Under the pieces are notes generated by a model, which saw nothing but the letters and a program-made list of their open reading frames with translations, did no database searches and was not told where the DNA came from. From Candidatus Brocadia sapporoensis (lineage in GTDB: Bacteria > Planctomycetota > Brocadiia > Brocadiales > Brocadiaceae): DNA of 52,242 nucleotides. Positions 42,919 to 51,810 of this stretch are shown piece by piece. Both the position numbers and the translations under genes were made by a program. The stretch is from contig NZ_MJUW02000024.1 of NCBI RefSeq assembly GCF_001753675.2, forward strand, positions 1 through 52,242, written 5' to 3'. Numbering within the stretch: position 1 is the stretch's first letter; each line of letters begins with the position of its first letter.

Positions 42919-44346
42919 TTATGCCGGATGCTTCGACTGTTGCTGAGGTATGGTAATGAGGAATTTCGTTCCAATGTTTACCGCACTTTCAACTTGAATG
43001 TGTCCGTGATGGAGAAGAACAATGTGCTTGACAATGGAAAGTCCTAGTCCGGTTCCGCCCATTTCCCGTGAGCGGGCAAGGTCGACGCGGTAAAACCTTT
43101 CAAAAATGCGTGGAATGTGCTCTTGCGGGATGCCAATGCCGGTATCGGATATTTCCAAGCAAAGGGAGGTATTGAATGCCGTAACTTTTAAATGTATTTT
43201 GCCGCCTTCTGCTGTATATTTTATGGCATTATCAAGCAAATTGGTCAGCAATTGGCGCAAAAGATATTCATTCGTTTCTATCAGGGGTAATTGTTGGGGT
43301 ATGTCCAGTTCAAGCGCCTGATTTTTTCTGATACCGTGCTCCTGGTATTGAGAAAAAATATTTTCTATGCATGGATGGATATCCAGCATGGTGAACTCTG
43401 TTTTTAGGTCATGTGAATCGAGTCTGGATAGTTCTAAAATGTCTTTGATAAGGTTGTCGAGCCGCTGTGAGTGTTTCATGATAATATGAAGAAATTCGTG
43501 TATTTCTTCTTGTCTTAGAGAGTTGTTTTCGAGCAGGGTTTCCACGTATCCCTTAATAGAAGCCAGCGGGGTTCGTAATTCATGGGATACATTGGCAACA
43601 AATTCTCTGCGGGTGTTTTCCAGTTTCCGTAATTCTGTGATATCGTGAAATACCAGAAGGATGCCCTGGTTCTCCTTATCAACCTGAATGGGAGAAAGAT
43701 GTATGTGTAGTAATTTTTTCTCCGGTGCAGAAATCTCTGTCTCAGATACCCTGGCCGTTTGTGTTTTGATGGTCTCTCTAACCAGACGATGTAGCTTTTC
43801 ATTTCTTATCTTTTCCCATAAATAATCTCTGTGTAAAACAACCGTTGATATGTCAAACATCGTTTTTGCCGCATTATTGATAAGTATGATCCTTTCCTGC
43901 AAGTCCGTGGTAATAACCGCATCATTCATGTGGGCCATGATAGCGTCCAGTTTGTTTTTGTCATCCACGATCGTTTGCTTACGGGATTGAAGTTCAGCCC
44001 CCATGGCATTAATTGCAGTTGCCAGGTCTCCTATCTCATCTGAGGAAACAATCTCTGCTTTTTGAGCGAAATTGCCTCGTGCAAAATTTTTTGCTATGTG
44101 CGTAATATGTAGGAAAGAAGACGTATTGATCCGGATGAGGACAAAACCGATAACCAGGGTGATCACAAAGGCCGGGAGCATGTGGCCGATAACTGTTTTC
44201 ATGTCGTATGCCATTGTTCTGGTTAACGGACTCAGGGAGTATTCTTGTATGATCTTGTTTACAAAATATCCAGCGATTGCCAGGCATAAGCATAAAAGGC
44301 CAGCGTAGCTGATAAAAATCTTCCAAAAGAGGCTGTTTTTTAACAT
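42919..44346 (-). CDS. phoR: sensor histidine kinase, PhoR type
   Basis: A 475-residue kinase. Two membrane segments (about 12-30 and 53-70) enclose only about 22 periplasmic residues. A HAMP linker, a PAS domain (about 120-220, ITTDLQERIILINNAAKTMF), HisKA with FVANVSHELRTPLASIKGYV and HATPase_c with LLDNAIKYTAEGG, DTGIGIPQEHIPRIFERF and GGTGLGLSIVKH follow. Like PhoR it lacks a real periplasmic sensor, so it probably reads a membrane partner or cytoplasmic cue through the PAS domain. It follows phoB by 3 bp. No pst or phoU gene is adjacent, so phosphate sensing is an inference from architecture. Confidence 0.9.
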   Translation of the reverse strand: MLKNSLFWKIFISYAGLLCLCLAIAGYFVNKIIQEYSLSPLTRTMAYDMKTVIGHMLPAFVITLVIGFVLIRINTSSFLHITHIAKNFARGNFAQKAEIVSSDEIGDLATAINAMGAELQSRKQTIVDDKNKLDAIMAHMNDAVITTDLQERIILINNAAKTMFDISTVVLHRDYLWEKIRNEKLHRLVRETIKTQTARVSETEISAPEKKLLHIHLSPIQVDKENQGILLVFHDITELRKLENTRREFVANVSHELRTPLASIKGYVETLLENNSLRQEEIHEFLHIIMKHSQRLDNLIKDILELSRLDSHDLKTEFTMLDIHPCIENIFSQYQEHGIRKNQALELDIPQQLPLIETNEYLLRQLLTNLLDNAIKYTAEGGKIHLKVTAFNTSLCLEISDTGIGIPQEHIPRIFERFYRVDLARSREMGGTGLGLSIVKHIVLLHHGHIQVESAVNIGTKFLITIPQQQSKHPA

Positions 44347-44349
44347 ATG

Positions 44350-45033
44350 CTATTCCTTGAATTTATAGCCAATTCCCCGAATGGTAGCAATACGATTTGC
44401 GAAGGTTTTTAATTTTTTTCTTAGGGAAGCGACGTGTACATCAATCGTCCGGTCCGTGACAGCTGTTTCAGGACCGGAAACAGCATCGAGTAGCTGGTCG
44501 CGGGTAAACACTCGTCCCGGCTTTCTGGCAAGATGGTAAAGAATCTTGAATTCTGTTAGGGTCAGTTGAACAGGTTCATTCTTAATGATTACTTCATGTT
44601 TATCCAGATCAATCGTAAGGTCGTCTATTTTAATATATTCTTGTGTTGCCGAAGTGCTTTTTGTCCGTCTGAGGACTGCCTGTGCACGCGCTACGAGCTC
44701 TTTTGGACTAAAGGGTTTTGTTATATAATCATCTGCACCCAATTTTAAACCCGTTGTTATATCTGCTTCCTCCCCTTTTGCAGTTAACATTACAATGGCA
44801 GTATTTGTAAGATCCCGGTCTGCTTTTAATTTTTTGCATACCTCCAGACCATCCATTCCCGGTAACATGAGATCTAATATGAGAAGCTCCGGTCTCTCTT
44901 TTCTGCTCAGAAACAATGCGTCTTCGCCGTTATAAGCTGATAATACCCGATAGCCATCTTTTTCAAGATGATAACGAATTAGTTTGACAAGGTCTTGTTC
45001 ATCATCAACTACAAGGATTTTTTCTTTTGCCAT
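44350..45033 (-). CDS. phoB: response regulator, PhoB/OmpR family
   Basis: A 227-residue regulator. The receiver has VDDEQDL, the phosphorylated Asp in LLILDLMLPGMDG, TAKGEEAD and KPFSPKELVARAQAVLRR. The C-terminal winged helix reads LTLTEFKILYHLARKPGRVF and IDVHVASLRKKL. It is upstream of, and coupled to, the PhoR-type kinase (3-bp gap). I see no clear pho box in the 250 bp before it. Confidence 0.92.
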   Translation of the reverse strand: MAKEKILVVDDEQDLVKLIRYHLEKDGYRVLSAYNGEDALFLSRKERPELLILDLMLPGMDGLEVCKKLKADRDLTNTAIVMLTAKGEEADITTGLKLGADDYITKPFSPKELVARAQAVLRRTKSTSATQEYIKIDDLTIDLDKHEVIIKNEPVQLTLTEFKILYHLARKPGRVFTRDQLLDAVSGPETAVTDRTIDVHVASLRKKLKTFANRIATIRGIGYKFKE

Positions 45034-45285: not shown

Positions 45286-46212
45286 TCAAGGCTGGTTCGA
45301 ACCGTTGAATCGTTTTAGTCTTTCTCTTATCTTGAAGAGGGACAAAAAACGTGGCAAAAATTGGCCAAGAAGACGGGCAGAACTGTTTTCGCGCAACAGA
45401 TTCATCCGATGTGCTTTATCTTTTTTTCCTGGATCAAAACGGGAAATTGGATCATCAAAAGGTTCTGCGATGGTTTTCTCATGATCGTAACCAACAGGAG
45501 AGGGAGGAGTGGCAGAGGCAATACCTTCGGGTATCTTATTTTTAATATTACTTCTTTTTGAACGGATATCCGTTTCAGCAATGATTTTGAAGTTAAAGTA
45601 TTTAGTCATTGCCGGTGTAACTCCAAAGGCGAAGTCGATGCAATCATGGTAAGCCGATACAATCAAATGAGATAATTCTTTGAGGCCATCTTCGTTAAAC
45701 GAAACATAGGTTGATTCCTGCGTGGATAATTTTTCAGAAGGAGGATTCCATCCCTTTTTCATTTCTGTAAATGATTCATCCGTTTGGTCAATCTCGAAGA
45801 AACAATCCCCCGATATGCGGCGAACAATAGCATCCGCGCCGGAAAAGTCCAGGTTTCTCCAGACATTTAACAGGTTCTTGCTGTCATAGTTCGCCAATAT
45901 CCACGGAAGGACAAACCAGAGATGCCGCCGGTATTCCCGCGGGACGCTTATTCCCTGCAGGCAATAAATATCACGACCCTCTTTGTCTTTATGGTTCGAC
46001 AAGCCGCAGCTTACAAGAAATGTCGTCTCGGGATAGTTCAAACAGTAGAGAGGCAAAAGTGATGATTTGCTGAGGATATGTTTGTGCTCATCATACGAAT
46101 CGTATAATCGATTTAATGCCTGAAGGCTTTCCAAAGAAACCTTTGGCGGAATAATCATCCACCGGTAATCTCTGGACAAGGAACGAGAGTATAAGAGTTC
46201 CCGATAGATCAT
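45286..46212 (-). CDS. unknown partner protein of the GTPase module
   Basis: A 308-residue soluble protein with no family I can name. It starts MIYRELLYSRSLSRDYRW, has aromatic- and Arg-rich patches (PREYRRHLWFVLPWILANYD) and a long charged C-terminal third (about 215-308), probably disordered and basic at the end (FLSLFKIRERLKRF). The N-terminal region, beginning with an I-Y-R-E-L-L-Y strand, is reminiscent of GTPase-associated (GAP1-N-like) proteins found beside bacterial GTPases; this is only an impression. Its ATG overlaps the GTPase stop codon by 4 bp, a strong sign of coupled translation and a shared job. Confidence 0.68.
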   Translation of the reverse strand: MIYRELLYSRSLSRDYRWMIIPPKVSLESLQALNRLYDSYDEHKHILSKSSLLPLYCLNYPETTFLVSCGLSNHKDKEGRDIYCLQGISVPREYRRHLWFVLPWILANYDSKNLLNVWRNLDFSGADAIVRRISGDCFFEIDQTDESFTEMKKGWNPPSEKLSTQESTYVSFNEDGLKELSHLIVSAYHDCIDFAFGVTPAMTKYFNFKIIAETDIRSKRSNIKNKIPEGIASATPPSPVGYDHEKTIAEPFDDPISRFDPGKKDKAHRMNLLRENSSARLLGQFLPRFLSLFKIRERLKRFNGSNQP

Positions 46213-47282
46213 GCAATTCGTCTTACCCTTTCCAGCGCCTTATTGAGGAGAGGTTCAATATGTGGTTCAAATTGACTTAACACCTCGTAATCCTTGTTTT
46301 TTTCTTCCAGGATAGCTCTGGCGATGCTCTCAGCATCTGGCTTGCGGGTAATGAGTGACCAAATCTTGTTTACTAGCCCCGCCTTTTTCAGAACTTCTGA
46401 AAGTTCTTTCTCGCGCTGTTTAATACTCTTGTGGGCCTCAACCTTCATCTGTTTTAACGTTTGTCCCAGACAATAAAACAAGACATGCTCTGCATTTAGC
46501 GGCGCCGGAAATCCTATGATTTTATCTTCAGATTTAAACGGATGCATTACGTCTCCTGTGGGAACAACCGTCCTTTTGGCATTCCCCTCTCCTACGGCGG
46601 AGACAGGGACTATGCCGCCCTGCCAGTCCGGATTTTGCTTACATAACGACACCATCTGATTGAACACTTCCAGACCACGTTCTATCAAGGGTGCGTAATT
46701 ATCGCTTTTCCATTTAGAATCAACCGTATCAGCTTTTGTTAGCATGATTACAAAGGTTAGATTCCTGTTGGGATATACCCTGCTGTAGGTCGTGAATATC
46801 TCATGGATCCTGCGGGCGCCCGACCGGTGCCGTGCCTCTTTTATGTTAGAATAATACGTGAGGACAAAGGCATCGACGACGAGGATTACCGCATTACTGA
46901 GTTCGATATGAGAAGCGAGGTCAGAAATTTCTGATTTTGTTATCTCCGAAGTGTCATTTGAATCAGGAATATCGGTGATTTCCGTTAAAATACCGCCACG
47001 ATAATCAATCCAGTCAAAATACGTTACCGGTTTTGAATTATAAAAAACTGTGAAAGGCCATACCGTGGTTTGTTGTGTCCCGTCCGGCCAGCTAAACGTA
47101 TCTGCAAGAGAGAATCTGCTAAAATCACCGATACTCAGAATGGCCTTATCAAATGGTTGCATTGAACGTGGAGCAAGACAAAAACCCGCATCATTTTGCC
47201 CCGCGTCTCCCAAGGTCTCGTAAAGTGACGACATATACGTTGTTTTGCCTGAGCCTGAAATTCCTACCATGGTTACTTTCAT
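46209..47282 (-). CDS. TRAFAC-type GTPase of unknown function
   Basis: A 357-residue GTPase with G1/Walker A GISGSGKTT at 7-15, G3 DYRGG at 93-97, G4 TKAD at 182-185 and a G5-like PVSAVGEG at 227-232. After the G domain come a helical, charged coiled-coil region (about 275-305, HKSIKQREKELSEVLKK) and another helical C-terminus. There is no membrane segment. It resembles the stand-alone 'double-GTPase' class found in predicted bacterial conflict systems more than translation or Era/Obg GTPases, but I cannot assign a family with confidence. It is the middle gene of a three-gene module, 117 bp after a two-TM peptide gene and overlapping the following gene by ATGA. Confidence 0.78.
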   Translation of the reverse strand: MKVTMVGISGSGKTTYMSSLYETLGDAGQNDAGFCLAPRSMQPFDKAILSIGDFSRFSLADTFSWPDGTQQTTVWPFTVFYNSKPVTYFDWIDYRGGILTEITDIPDSNDTSEITKSEISDLASHIELSNAVILVVDAFVLTYYSNIKEARHRSGARRIHEIFTTYSRVYPNRNLTFVIMLTKADTVDSKWKSDNYAPLIERGLEVFNQMVSLCKQNPDWQGGIVPVSAVGEGNAKRTVVPTGDVMHPFKSEDKIIGFPAPLNAEHVLFYCLGQTLKQMKVEAHKSIKQREKELSEVLKKAGLVNKIWSLITRKPDAESIARAILEEKNKDYEVLSQFEPHIEPLLNKALERVRRIA

Positions 47283-47399
47283 ATTCCAAATTACCTCTAA
47301 TAAACGCTGTTAATTATCGTTGGCTATTCTGTAGTCGGTTCCTGGCTGCCGCTTCATCAGCAAAATCAGAAAGAGAGAAATTCTGTAACTGCCTGCCGC

Positions 47400-47672
47400 C
47401 TACTCGAAACATTTTCGTCGTATCATCTCCATGGTTACACCTAAAAATCCCATGATAAACGGCAACATAATTGCTACTTTTGAAAATCCGGCAATAATCC
47501 AAATCGTCACCGAAATAAAAAAACCAATTATTGCGCCCAGGAAAAAAAGATACATGAGGTGCGTCATACCCCGTTGGGTTTGCACTGGCGTTCTTTGCCC
47601 GGAGGATTTTGCCTCTCCGGAAATTAGCGCCTTTTTACTCAATTCCCTATGCTTTTTTATAGTATCTGACAT
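47400..47672 (-). CDS. small two-transmembrane protein upstream of the GTPase
   Basis: A 90-residue protein with a basic cytosolic N-terminus (1-35) and two hydrophobic helices (about 38-60, MYLFFLGAIIGFFISVTIWI; about 65-82, VAIMLPFIMGFLGVTMEM), ending in a basic RRKC tail. No motif is recognised. It is the first gene after the promoter at 47704-47731 and precedes the GTPase by 117 bp on the same strand. Pairing of a tiny membrane protein with a GTPase and a soluble partner suggests a membrane-tethered assembly. Confidence 0.65.
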   Translation of the reverse strand: MSDTIKKHRELSKKALISGEAKSSGQRTPVQTQRGMTHLMYLFFLGAIIGFFISVTIWIIAGFSKVAIMLPFIMGFLGVTMEMIRRKCFE

Positions 47673-47703
47673 CTGATTTTACCCGCAATTTTCTAAGGAA
47701 TTA

Positions 47704-47731
47704 ATTATAGTGAGTAATATCATTGAATCAA
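47704..47731 (-). promoter_or_regulatory. promoter for the GTPase module
   Basis: On the minus strand TTGATT (47731-47726), a 16-bp spacer and TATAAT (47709-47704), ending 31 bp before the start codon of the two-TM protein. The perfect -10 makes this one of the better promoters in the window, and it separates the module from miaB upstream. Confidence 0.6.
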
Positions 47732-47848: not shown

Positions 47849-49207
47849 TCAGGAACACGAAGGCTGTTTGCCGTAAAGGGTAAGGTCTGTTACCTCATCC
47901 ACCATAACGTCCGCCAGTTTTCCTGCCAGGTCCCGTGACCCGCGAAAAACAACGATATGGTTTTGCCTTGTCCTGCCCGACAGCTTATTTGGGTCGGATT
48001 TGCTGGCGCCTTCGACAAGCACCTGCACCTTTTTGCCAATCATTTTTCTATTCTCTTCCAGGCTGATACTTTTCTGCAATTCCAGCAACTTCATATTTCT
48101 CGCCCTTTTCACCCCATCGGGTAAATCATCTTCCAGTTCGGCAGCCTTCGTGCCTGTACGGGGTGAATATTTAAATATAAAACAATTATGAAAACGGATG
48201 TCTTCCATCAACCGCACCGTTTCCTGGAAATCTCCGTCCGTCTCTCCCGGAAAGCCCACAATAAAGTCGCTGGCTATGCTAATATGAGGGATCCATTCCC
48301 TTGCGTAAGAGATCAAGTCACGGTAATAATCCACCGTGTAACCACGACGCATCCTTTTGAGGATGGAGTCAGAACCCGACTGGGCAGGCATGTGCAAATG
48401 TTCACAGACCTTGCTCAGTCGGCTCATGGTACGGATGAGATCGCGGGACATATCCGCAGGATGTGAAGTCACAAACCGTATTCGTTCAAGCCCGTCTATA
48501 TCGTTTAATTCCGAAAGCAGATCTCCAAGTGTTACACCCCCTGTCAAACCTTTCCCGTAGGAATTTATATTTTGACCGAGTAGGGTAACCTCCTTGCAAC
48601 CATTTGATACAAGGGCTTGCACCTCTTCTTTTACATCGGCAATTGTCCGGCTGATCTCCCGTCCACGCACATAGGGCACAATACAATAGGAACAAAAGTT
48701 ATCGCAGCCCCGCATAACCGTAACGAATGCCTGATAAAAATTTGGCCGGTAGGTCACTGCCCTCTTCACGTTAACGATCTGATCCTCCTCTACAGCAAGG
48801 ACATGTGAACCATGATTTTTAATATTTAAAAGCAGTTCTGGCAACCGGGAAAACATGCGCGTCCCGCAGACCAGGTCAACATGAGGCATACGTTTAAATA
48901 TAGATTCGCCGTCTTTTTGCGCCATGCATCCAAGGACACCCACAATGACTTCCGGATGTTTTTTCTTCAGCATTTTTAATGCACCGAGATGGGAATACAC
49001 CTTATCTTCGGCATGCTGCCGTACGCTGCAGGTGTTGAACAGGATGACATCGGCCGCGTCAGGTTTGTCAACAATTCTGTAACCTTCTTCCTGTAATAAC
49101 CCTAATGAGAGCTCGGCATCGAGTTTGTTCATTTGGCAGCCGAAGGTTTCAAAAAAAACGGTCTTGTATTGGCGGCCTTTATTAGTAAAATTAGGAGAAT
49201 CGATCAT
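47849..49207 (-). CDS. miaB: tRNA-2-methylthio-N6-dimethylallyladenosine synthase MiaB
   Basis: Adds the 2-methylthio group to i6A37 of tRNA. The 452 residues contain the N-terminal MTTase domain (FETFGCQMN…, FNTCSVRQHAEDK and GVLGCMAQKDGE supply three cluster cysteines), the radical SAM motif RGCDNFCSYCIVPYVRGRE and HMPAQSGSD, and a C-terminal TRAM domain (about 385-450). It stands alone; a 540-bp gap with repeats lies upstream. Confidence 0.95.
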   Translation of the reverse strand: MIDSPNFTNKGRQYKTVFFETFGCQMNKLDAELSLGLLQEEGYRIVDKPDAADVILFNTCSVRQHAEDKVYSHLGALKMLKKKHPEVIVGVLGCMAQKDGESIFKRMPHVDLVCGTRMFSRLPELLLNIKNHGSHVLAVEEDQIVNVKRAVTYRPNFYQAFVTVMRGCDNFCSYCIVPYVRGREISRTIADVKEEVQALVSNGCKEVTLLGQNINSYGKGLTGGVTLGDLLSELNDIDGLERIRFVTSHPADMSRDLIRTMSRLSKVCEHLHMPAQSGSDSILKRMRRGYTVDYYRDLISYAREWIPHISIASDFIVGFPGETDGDFQETVRLMEDIRFHNCFIFKYSPRTGTKAAELEDDLPDGVKRARNMKLLELQKSISLEENRKMIGKKVQVLVEGASKSDPNKLSGRTRQNHIVVFRGSRDLAGKLADVMVDEVTDLTLYGKQPSCS

Positions 49208-49747: not shown

Positions 49748-50425
49748 ATGAGAATATTGGTCGTAGAGGATGAAAAAAAATTAGCAGCCTATATAAAAAA
49801 GGGGCTCGAAGAAAACCACTTTGCCGTTGATGTGAGTCATGATGGTGAAGAAGGTCTCTTTCTGCTTAATGCAAATGAATATGATCTCGTTATCCTGGAT
49901 ATCCTGCTTCCAAAGAAAAGCGGACTCGAGATACTACAGCAGGCAAGAAAAAACGACAAGGATATGCCGATCCTTTTGTTAACTGCAAGGGATGCCGTTG
50001 AGGACAAGGCTCGTGGATTAGATTCAGGGGCGGATGATTACCTGGTAAAACCCTTTTCTTTTATAGAACTGATGGCACGGGTACGGGCATTAATCCGAAG
50101 GGGAAAGGTTCATTATCAAACACGGTTATCGGTTGCGGATATTTTGCTGGATGTGGCAACACACAGACTTTATCGAAATGGACAGCCCGTAGATCTTACC
50201 AATAGAGAATTTGCCTTGTTAGAGTTTTTTATGAGAAATCTCAATACGGTAATAACCCGTACCCAGATTGCAGAACATGTATGGGATTACAATTTTGACA
50301 GCCTTACCAATGTAATCGATGTCTTTGTAAATCGCCTGAGAAATAAGATTGATAAAGATCGCACCCATAAACTGATTCACACGATCAAGGGTGTCGGGTA
50401 CATCATGAAAGATAAAAAATCATGA
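49748..50425 (+). CDS. response regulator, CusR/OmpR family
   Basis: A 225-residue regulator: VEDEKKLAAYIKKGL at the start, phospho-Asp in VILDILLPKKSG, LLTARDAVEDKARGLDSGAD, KPFSFIELMARVRALIRR, then a winged-helix domain with DLTNREFALLEFFMRN and IDVFVNRLRNKID. The receiver sequence resembles CusR/CopR metal-response regulators, but no metal efflux gene is next to it. It overlaps the kinase start by 4 bp (ATGA). A short possible ribosome site (tagaga) precedes the ATG. Confidence 0.9.
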   Translation: MRILVVEDEKKLAAYIKKGLEENHFAVDVSHDGEEGLFLLNANEYDLVILDILLPKKSGLEILQQARKNDKDMPILLLTARDAVEDKARGLDSGADDYLVKPFSFIELMARVRALIRRGKVHYQTRLSVADILLDVATHRLYRNGQPVDLTNREFALLEFFMRNLNTVITRTQIAEHVWDYNFDSLTNVIDVFVNRLRNKIDKDRTHKLIHTIKGVGYIMKDKKS

Positions 50426-51810
50426 AATCGTGGACAATTCGCACAAAACTCACCTTCTGGTACACCAGCATTTTCGGAACGACGCTTGTTCTTTTTGGTT
50501 TATTAATCTATCTCGCATTTTCTTATGCAAATAACAAACGCATAGATGTCGGGCTTAAAGAAGAAGCTGATGGAATAGCTCATTATGCACAAATTAATAT
50601 GAATTCTTTCAAGGAATACATTGTGCGTATCTCAAATGAAAGAGATGATGAATGGGCTGCGGGAAAATATGTCGCGATACTCGATTCTGCAGGAAACCTT
50701 CAATTCCGGTCGGGAAACTTAACGGATGCTCATCTGCCGCTGCAAAGCCATCAAATCAAGGAAATCCTTTCAGGAAAGATATACTTCAAGACTAAGAAGA
50801 ACTCAAAGGGACGTCTTTTGCGTATCATTACGATGTCCATGATGGACACCCGGGGATTAATTCAGATTGGAATCGCCATTAACAAGGATGTTGCACTCAA
50901 TATCTTTCTATTTATCCTTACGGCGCTGGGATTCCTTGCGATTGTCAGTAGCTGGTTTGGCGGTCGCTTTATGGCGAAAAAGGCCCTAAAGCCCATAGAT
51001 CGTATGACAAAAGAACTCAGGAAGATCGAAACCGAACAATTGGGAGAAAGGCTGGCACTCCATCCGGCGAAAGATGAAATCCATAAGCTTTCGGGAGTTG
51101 TTAACGAAATGTTGTCGCGCCTGGAAAACTCTTTTAATCAGACACGCCGGTTCACAGCCGATGCCTCTCATGAATTGCGTACTCCTATCGCTATTATGAG
51201 AGCGGGACTCGAGATTGCTCTATCAAGAGAGAGGGATATCCGTGGCTATCAGCAAGTCCTTGCAAACACCCTGGAGGATTTGGGGCGGCTGTCTAAAATT
51301 GTAGAGAATCTGTTTCTCCTGGCAAAGGCAGATGTGGGACGTTATGAATTGCATAAGGAGCGGATGAATCTTTGTCCTGTTATCACAGATATTGCTGAAC
51401 AGTTAAAACTTATTGCCGAGCCGAAAAATATCTTCGTATCCATGGATAAGATGGAAGAGGCATTTATTAGCGGTGACGACTTGCTTGTCAGGATGCTGCT
51501 TTTAAATCTCGTTGACAATGCCGTAAAATATACCCTGCCGCATGGGGCAATCAGGATGTCACTCGGCAAGACAAATGGTTATGCAAAAATCGTCATCAAA
51601 GATAATGGTATCGGTATTTCTCCAGAAGACATTCCTCACATATTCGATCGTTTTTACAGATCCAATAATGCCCGTACGGCAAACCATAACGGTACCGGGC
51701 TCGGACTCAGCATCTGTCAATGGATCGTCAAGTCCCATTATGGCACAATTGCTGTCGAAAGTACGCTGCAAAAGGGAAGTGCCTTTACCGTCACACTCCC
51801 CACCTGTTAG
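50422..51810 (+). CDS. sensor histidine kinase, CusS-like
   Basis: A 462-residue kinase. Two membrane segments (about 12-34 and 158-180) bracket a periplasmic domain of about 120 residues with no obvious His/Met metal-binding cluster. A HAMP linker, HisKA with FTADASHELRTPIAIMRAGL and HATPase_c with LVDNAVKYTLPHGA, DNGIGISPEDIPHIFDRFYR and GTGLGLSICQWIV follow. All kinase boxes are intact. It is translationally coupled to the regulator. The ligand is unknown. A repeat begins 58 bp after its stop. Confidence 0.9.
   Translation: MKSWTIRTKLTFWYTSIFGTTLVLFGLLIYLAFSYANNKRIDVGLKEEADGIAHYAQINMNSFKEYIVRISNERDDEWAAGKYVAILDSAGNLQFRSGNLTDAHLPLQSHQIKEILSGKIYFKTKKNSKGRLLRIITMSMMDTRGLIQIGIAINKDVALNIFLFILTALGFLAIVSSWFGGRFMAKKALKPIDRMTKELRKIETEQLGERLALHPAKDEIHKLSGVVNEMLSRLENSFNQTRRFTADASHELRTPIAIMRAGLEIALSRERDIRGYQQVLANTLEDLGRLSKIVENLFLLAKADVGRYELHKERMNLCPVITDIAEQLKLIAEPKNIFVSMDKMEEAFISGDDLLVRMLLLNLVDNAVKYTLPHGAIRMSLGKTNGYAKIVIKDNGIGISPEDIPHIFDRFYRSNNARTANHNGTGLGLSICQWIVKSHYGTIAVESTLQKGSAFTVTLPTC

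Follow-up and report, generated by a model that had tools for sequence, protein, structure and literature searches.

Gene organization of the locus

The window, that is, the whole stretch of 52,242 nucleotides that was analysed, comes from the anammox planctomycete Candidatus Brocadia sapporoensis, in whose genome a hydrazine synthase alpha match is present. Anammox bacteria are ammonium-oxidising organisms with an internal organelle. On the minus strand the window carries three genes, encoding a small two-helix membrane protein, a GTPase and a third protein, hereafter the partner, with the following features:

47704..47731, minus strand: promoter-like sequence TTGATT-16-TATAAT, unproven
47400..47672, minus strand: two-helix membrane protein, 90 aa (open reading frame, hydropathy, 12 orthologues aligned)
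47421..47549, minus strand: two predicted transmembrane helices with a short loop (hydropathy)
46209..47282, minus strand: GTPase, 357 aa, probably divergent DO-GTPase2-like (open reading frame, profiles, alignment, model)
47241..47264, minus strand: G1/P-loop, GISGSGKT (alignment)
46992..47012, minus strand: G3 segment, W-x-D-Y-R-G-G, DxxG present (alignment)
46728..46739, minus strand: G4, TKAD (alignment)
45286..46212, minus strand: partner, 308 aa (open reading frame, alignment, model)
45838..46212, minus strand: putative longin/GAP1-N-like N-terminal domain of the partner, residues 1-125 (predicted model, profile comparison)
46159..46188, minus strand: partner motif SRSLSRDYRW, with R10, D15 and R17 (alignment)
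45952..45987, minus strand: partner motif D-x-x-G-R-D-I-Y-x-L-x-G, with D76, R80 and G87 (alignment)
45331..45384, minus strand: basic amphipathic C-terminal segment of the partner (orthologues examined)

The three open reading frames lie where the initial annotation had placed them, as does the four-base overlap (ATGA, 46209-46212) between the GTPase and partner genes, an arrangement that recurs in nearly all orthologues read. The 90-residue protein likewise proved to be a two-helix membrane protein as described, with hydrophobic stretches at residues 42-60 and 66-84 (Kyte-Doolittle 2.56 and 1.99) and with both termini basic. The upstream sequence that had been called a good promoter is present, but its promoter status is unproven, because the number of promoter-like sites in the region equals the chance expectation (5 observed against 5.6 ± 2.0 expected) and the site shows no visible conservation upstream of orthologues. 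Flanking the trio are genes that, as named from sequence, are miaB (47849-49207) and a PhoB/PhoR-type pair (42919-45033). The region as a whole is bracketed by two such PhoB/PhoR-like two-component pairs, the second at 49748-51810, on opposite strands, and in most Brocadia genomes the gene immediately upstream of the trio is miaB, which was not seen at this position in other genera.

The GTPase and its family relationships

The GTPase comprises a G domain of approximately residues 1-260 and a helical C-terminal region (264-350). The motifs first read from the single sequence are borne out by alignment of the anammox orthologues, in which G1 (GxSGSGKT), G3 (W-x-D-[YF]-R-G-G) and G4 (TK[AC]D) vary hardly or not at all and a G5-like segment can be recognised. 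In the other relatives described below, G3 has the form D-Y-R-G-[GSR], compared with D-[YF]-R-G-G in the anammox orthologues; neither glutamine nor glutamate follows DxxG, and glycine occupies the Walker-B position at which DO-GTPases have glutamate (for example, DLGGE or DMAGE), a residue conserved in those proteins (Kaur et al. 2020, PMC7159879). The best Pfam family is DO-GTPase2 (PF19993), matched by three divergent members at 24.6-24.7 bits (E ~2e-5), the anammox GTPases thus scoring below the curated cut-off of 27 bits, while cyanobacterial relatives score up to 57 bits and exceed it. A PDB sequence search with the GTPase profile returned nothing significant; the predicted model (mean pLDDT 70.5) matches Arf/Arl/Rag G domains with Z up to 15.3 over 160 residues. 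Judged by its profile scores, the protein is probably a divergent, sub-threshold relative of DO-GTPase2, and its invariant G1 and TKxD motifs together with the Arf/Rag-like model mark it as a P-loop GTPase of TRAFAC type.

The partner protein

No Pfam family, including GAP1-N1 and GAP1-N2, matches the partner, and the copy in the window has no match in NCBIfam or PADLOC. Neither GAP1-M nor GAP1-C was recognised in it, and nothing significant emerged from a PDB sequence search with its profile or from HMMER comparison of that profile with GAP1-bearing loci. In a combined alignment of anammox, cyanobacterial and gut homologues, residues R10, D15, D76, R80 and G87 are invariant and R17 is retained in more than 90% of the sequences. 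The predicted model, with a mean pLDDT of 62.6 overall and about 80 over the first 110 residues, shows a mixed alpha/beta domain and, after it, a tail predicted with low confidence. The model comes structurally closest to TagF (Foldseek E 3e-4, Z 7.8, 194 residues), the match spanning residues 1-225, and most of the other matches are longin domains of GTPase regulators or adaptors at Z 4-6, including GATOR1, C9orf72-SMCR8, Lst4, FLCN, Mon1-Ccz1 and TRAPP. Since Z values below 8 can reflect a common arrangement or unrelated folds, the apparent resemblance of the N-terminal domain to TagF and to longin-domain GTPase regulators is suggestive; MglB chains occur low in the same Foldseek list, and related folds are indistinguishable at this model quality.

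Profile comparison with hhalign gave the partner N-terminus a score of 20.6 against GAP1-N2, with a probability of only 6%, a value reached by none of 200 decoys (mean 10.8, sd 2.1, maximum 20.0); in control comparisons of the partner profile with the GTPase and with the membrane protein, no signal rose above decoys. GAP1-N2 and TagF_N profiles in turn align with each other at a score of 21.0, which none of 150 decoys attained. The direct score of the partner against TagF_N, best aligned at the D-x-x-G-R segment, falls within the decoy range, and a direct profile kinship of these two was rejected as not significant, with 9 of 150 decoys scoring as high. These comparisons hint that GAP1-N, TagF_N and the partner may belong to one superfamily, as distinct from membership of the partner in either named family. 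The alignment above all decoys of profiles from the GAP1-N2 loci (L082-L106) and the TagF_N loci (L113-L132) may reflect a kinship of GAP1-N and TagF that has gone unrecorded. The basic amphipathic C-terminal segment of the partner could possibly act as a membrane-binding helix.

The statement in the initial annotation that none of the three proteins belongs to a nameable family is not quite accurate, since the GTPase is a divergent relative of DO-GTPase2 below the cut-off; the partner has neither a Pfam nor a GAP1 match.

Distribution and selective constraint

Of 59 relatives, 21 have the GTPase; the partner occurs in these 21 and in no others, and the two genes are contiguous in 21 of the 21 genomes having either. 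Six genera of one family account for all but one of these pair-bearing genomes, the remaining one belonging to a second family of the order; when 62 genomes of the order were surveyed, the pair again turned up in those 21 only, and no partner was found in the further planctomycete genomes sampled. The small membrane protein is encoded upstream of the GTPase in 17 of the 32 genomes searched, corresponding to 17 of the 21 with the pair. The exceptions, where it was not found, are G018, G020 and G025, all of the Kuenenia type, and G036, the genome of the other family; small open reading frames upstream of the GTPase in these loci include no clear two-helix protein, so the pair does not depend on the membrane protein. 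Across 19 flanking regions the neighbours are ordinary genes that differ by genus, and the trio itself stays together. The co-occurrence count called for initially thus bears out an uncharacterised unit that is kept together in related genomes, the GTPase-partner pair being found in other phyla too.

In Candidatus Brocadia carolinensis (L017 and L050) the GTPase frame is interrupted by internal stops and the membrane-protein frame is split, and in a Jettenia-type genome (L016) the GTPase frame has a shifted start; assembly error and decay are indistinguishable as causes. Hydrazine synthase, the anammox marker, was also found in genomes without the trio, which is therefore not tied to anammox as such and was rejected as a marker of that metabolism; the hydrazine synthase search is only a rough guide, since it failed to pick up the marker in several genomes that are nearly complete.

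The GTPase is a single-copy gene. In six Brocadia comparisons, pairwise identity amounted to 87-94% for the GTPase and 85-87% for miaB, and to 50-65% for the partner and 42-58% for the membrane protein. The corresponding dN/dS values were 0.027-0.037 for the GTPase against 0.061-0.100 for the housekeeping gene miaB, 0.144-0.217 for the partner and 0.168-0.315 for the membrane protein, ratios that are rough because dS exceeds 1 in most of the comparisons. Strong purifying selection acts on the GTPase, more tightly than on miaB, and the partner changes much faster. The contiguity of the pair in every genome that carries it, together with the strong constraint on the GTPase, exceeds what chance would be expected to produce; the pair is not universal, as it is missing from part of the order.

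Relatives in cyanobacteria and a gut contig

Searches of the GTPase with tblastn recovered relatives in the cyanobacteria Geminocystis, Calothrix and Anabaena, where they are known from plasmid records only (E 2e-14 to 8e-8), and on a contig from the gut that had been deposited as a phage (E 2e-9). The cyanobacterial operons resemble the trio in their homologous D-Y-R-G GTPases and in partner motifs (Y-x-R-T-x-x-V-D-F-R and D-x-x-x-R), and differ from it in having three GTPases (two in the Anabaena stretch read) and two partner homologues each. In two of the three plasmids, those of Geminocystis and Calothrix, the first partner of the operon ends in two C-terminal transmembrane helices, and this fused hairpin corresponds to the two-helix protein that has a gene of its own in the window, which is the strongest indication that the membrane protein is part of the system. 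On the gut contig a partner homologue lies directly 3' of the GTPase, with a 116-aa protein containing hydrophobic stretches on its 5' side. The anammox partner profile scores 29.8 against the cyanobacterial profile (decoy maximum 17.9) and 36.5 against the gut protein (decoy maximum 17.2), whereas the cyanobacterial and gut partners have no direct match, 27 of 100 decoys reaching their score, so that the anammox set forms the link between the partner groups.

Several features of these surroundings were recorded alongside. On the 11-kb human gut contig (L136, MT836273) a double AAA+ ATPase is encoded beside the trio of GTPase, partner and transmembrane-protein genes, and no obvious phage structural gene occurs among the open reading frames; on the plasmid of Anabaena sp. 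90, Hsp70-family and dynamin-family genes lie near the GTPase-partner operon; and one cyanobacterial plasmid copy is located near an annotated anti-phage dCTP deaminase.

A proposed membrane-associated switch and its alternatives

The trio is best read, with a confidence somewhat better than even, as a membrane-associated GTPase switch with its own cognate regulator. This interpretation draws on low-diversity alignments and on structure comparison by predicted models, and it retains from the membrane-tethered switch originally proposed the membrane-associated GTPase with a dedicated partner, but not the defence role. GTP binding by the GTPase is supported at the level of motif and fold, and the downstream partner would be its dedicated regulator. 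In the longin-domain GAPs of Arf and Rag, an arginine finger is placed in the nucleotide site (PMC8213707); by analogy, the longin/GAP1-N-like domain of the partner would most likely bind the G domain and complete or control GTP hydrolysis, in which one of its invariant arginines, R10 or R80, or the nearly invariant R17, perhaps serves. An Arf/Rag-like GTPase with a longin-like partner, as the models predict it, is the composition seen with GATOR1 NPRL2, FLCN-FNIP2 and C9orf72-SMCR8, although there is no sequence relation to these proteins and no DENN domain was found. The combination of a bacterial G protein and a cognate regulator in one operon also recalls MglA/MglB and the conservons, which, as described in the literature, are set apart by a roadblock-domain regulator and a Ras-sized GTPase. 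The two-helix protein, possibly aided by the basic amphipathic tail of the partner, would hold the complex at the membrane, and candidate processes under its control are those of the envelope, the anammoxosome or division membrane, and secretion.

A reduced DO-GTPase/GAP1 conflict system, in which the GTPase would act as a threshold switch, the partner as a stripped-down GAP1 protein and the two-helix protein as a pore-forming effector released on infection, is considered unlikely. Its likeness to DO-GTPase2/GAP1-N2 systems (PF19993, PF20013) extends to a TRAFAC-type GTPase with relatives scoring on DO-GTPase2, above the cut-off in cyanobacteria, to a dedicated gene directly downstream, the usual place of GAP1, with an N-terminus matching GAP1-N2 weakly though above all decoys, and to membrane segments, which are common there, two-TM SLATT effectors included (PMC7159879); the plasmid copy near the dCTP deaminase would also fit. 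The trio departs from those systems in that the Walker-B glutamate is replaced, the GTPase falls below the Pfam cut-off and the partner, of about 300 aa, has no recognisable GAP1 domain. No effector, GASH or FNIII gene family recurs in the 19 flanking regions, whose neighbours were partly scanned against Pfam, the GTPase has no PADLOC match of note, and no relative turned up among the viral contigs covered by five scans. The defence or conflict module suggested initially was rejected on these PADLOC, neighbourhood and viral-contig scans and is also at odds with a single-copy GTPase more constrained than miaB. The tight constraint on the GTPase and the lack of any recurrent effector gene make defence less likely and suggest that the switch serves ordinary cell physiology.

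Somewhat less probable again is an arrangement in which a membrane complex is assembled by the action of the GTPase, with the partner serving as scaffold or repressor and not as a GAP, on the pattern of type VI secretion with its TagF and its NTPase TssM, although the secretion machine itself is missing here. TagF (PF09867), reported to repress the T6SS by binding Fha directly (PMC5995506), is the structure matched best by the partner and has the D-x-x-G-R segment in common with it, and the GAP1-N2 and TagF_N profiles align above all decoys. The direct partner-TagF_N score is not significant, however, a TagF_N match is absent from the genome carrying the window, and the GTPase resembles Arf/Rag G domains. 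Least probable of all is a lineage-specific housekeeping GTPase, acting in ribosome assembly or trafficking, and an unrelated neighbour co-transcribed by chance, which would account for the strong constraint but neither for a pair that stays intact in varied surroundings, in another family of the order, in cyanobacteria and on a gut contig nor for its absence from part of the order.

Biological significance

The pairing of a GTPase switch with a longin-type partner of its own is familiar above all from membrane traffic in eukaryotes. A far-reaching version of the preferred membrane-associated switch, which we regard as distinctly improbable, is that an Arf/Rag-like GTPase, a longin-type regulator and a membrane anchor control an internal membrane such as the anammoxosome and are common to anammox, cyanobacteria and gut bacteria; with equally slight likelihood, such a system might parallel, in prokaryotes, the longin-GTPase logic found in eukaryotic endomembranes. 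A common origin of GAP1-N, TagF_N and the partner, which is possible, would tie predicted conflict systems to type VI regulation by one fold. The constant pairing of the strongly conserved GTPase with its partner in anammox bacteria, together with the recurrence of the pair in cyanobacteria and on the gut contig, points to an undescribed membrane-associated molecular switch and away from defence. If GTPase and partner are a true regulator pair, they would represent an undescribed bacterial GTPase-partner family present in at least three lineages, the partner would contribute a domain without a Pfam entry, and the system would be a tractable candidate for a part in organising the membranes of anammox bacteria.
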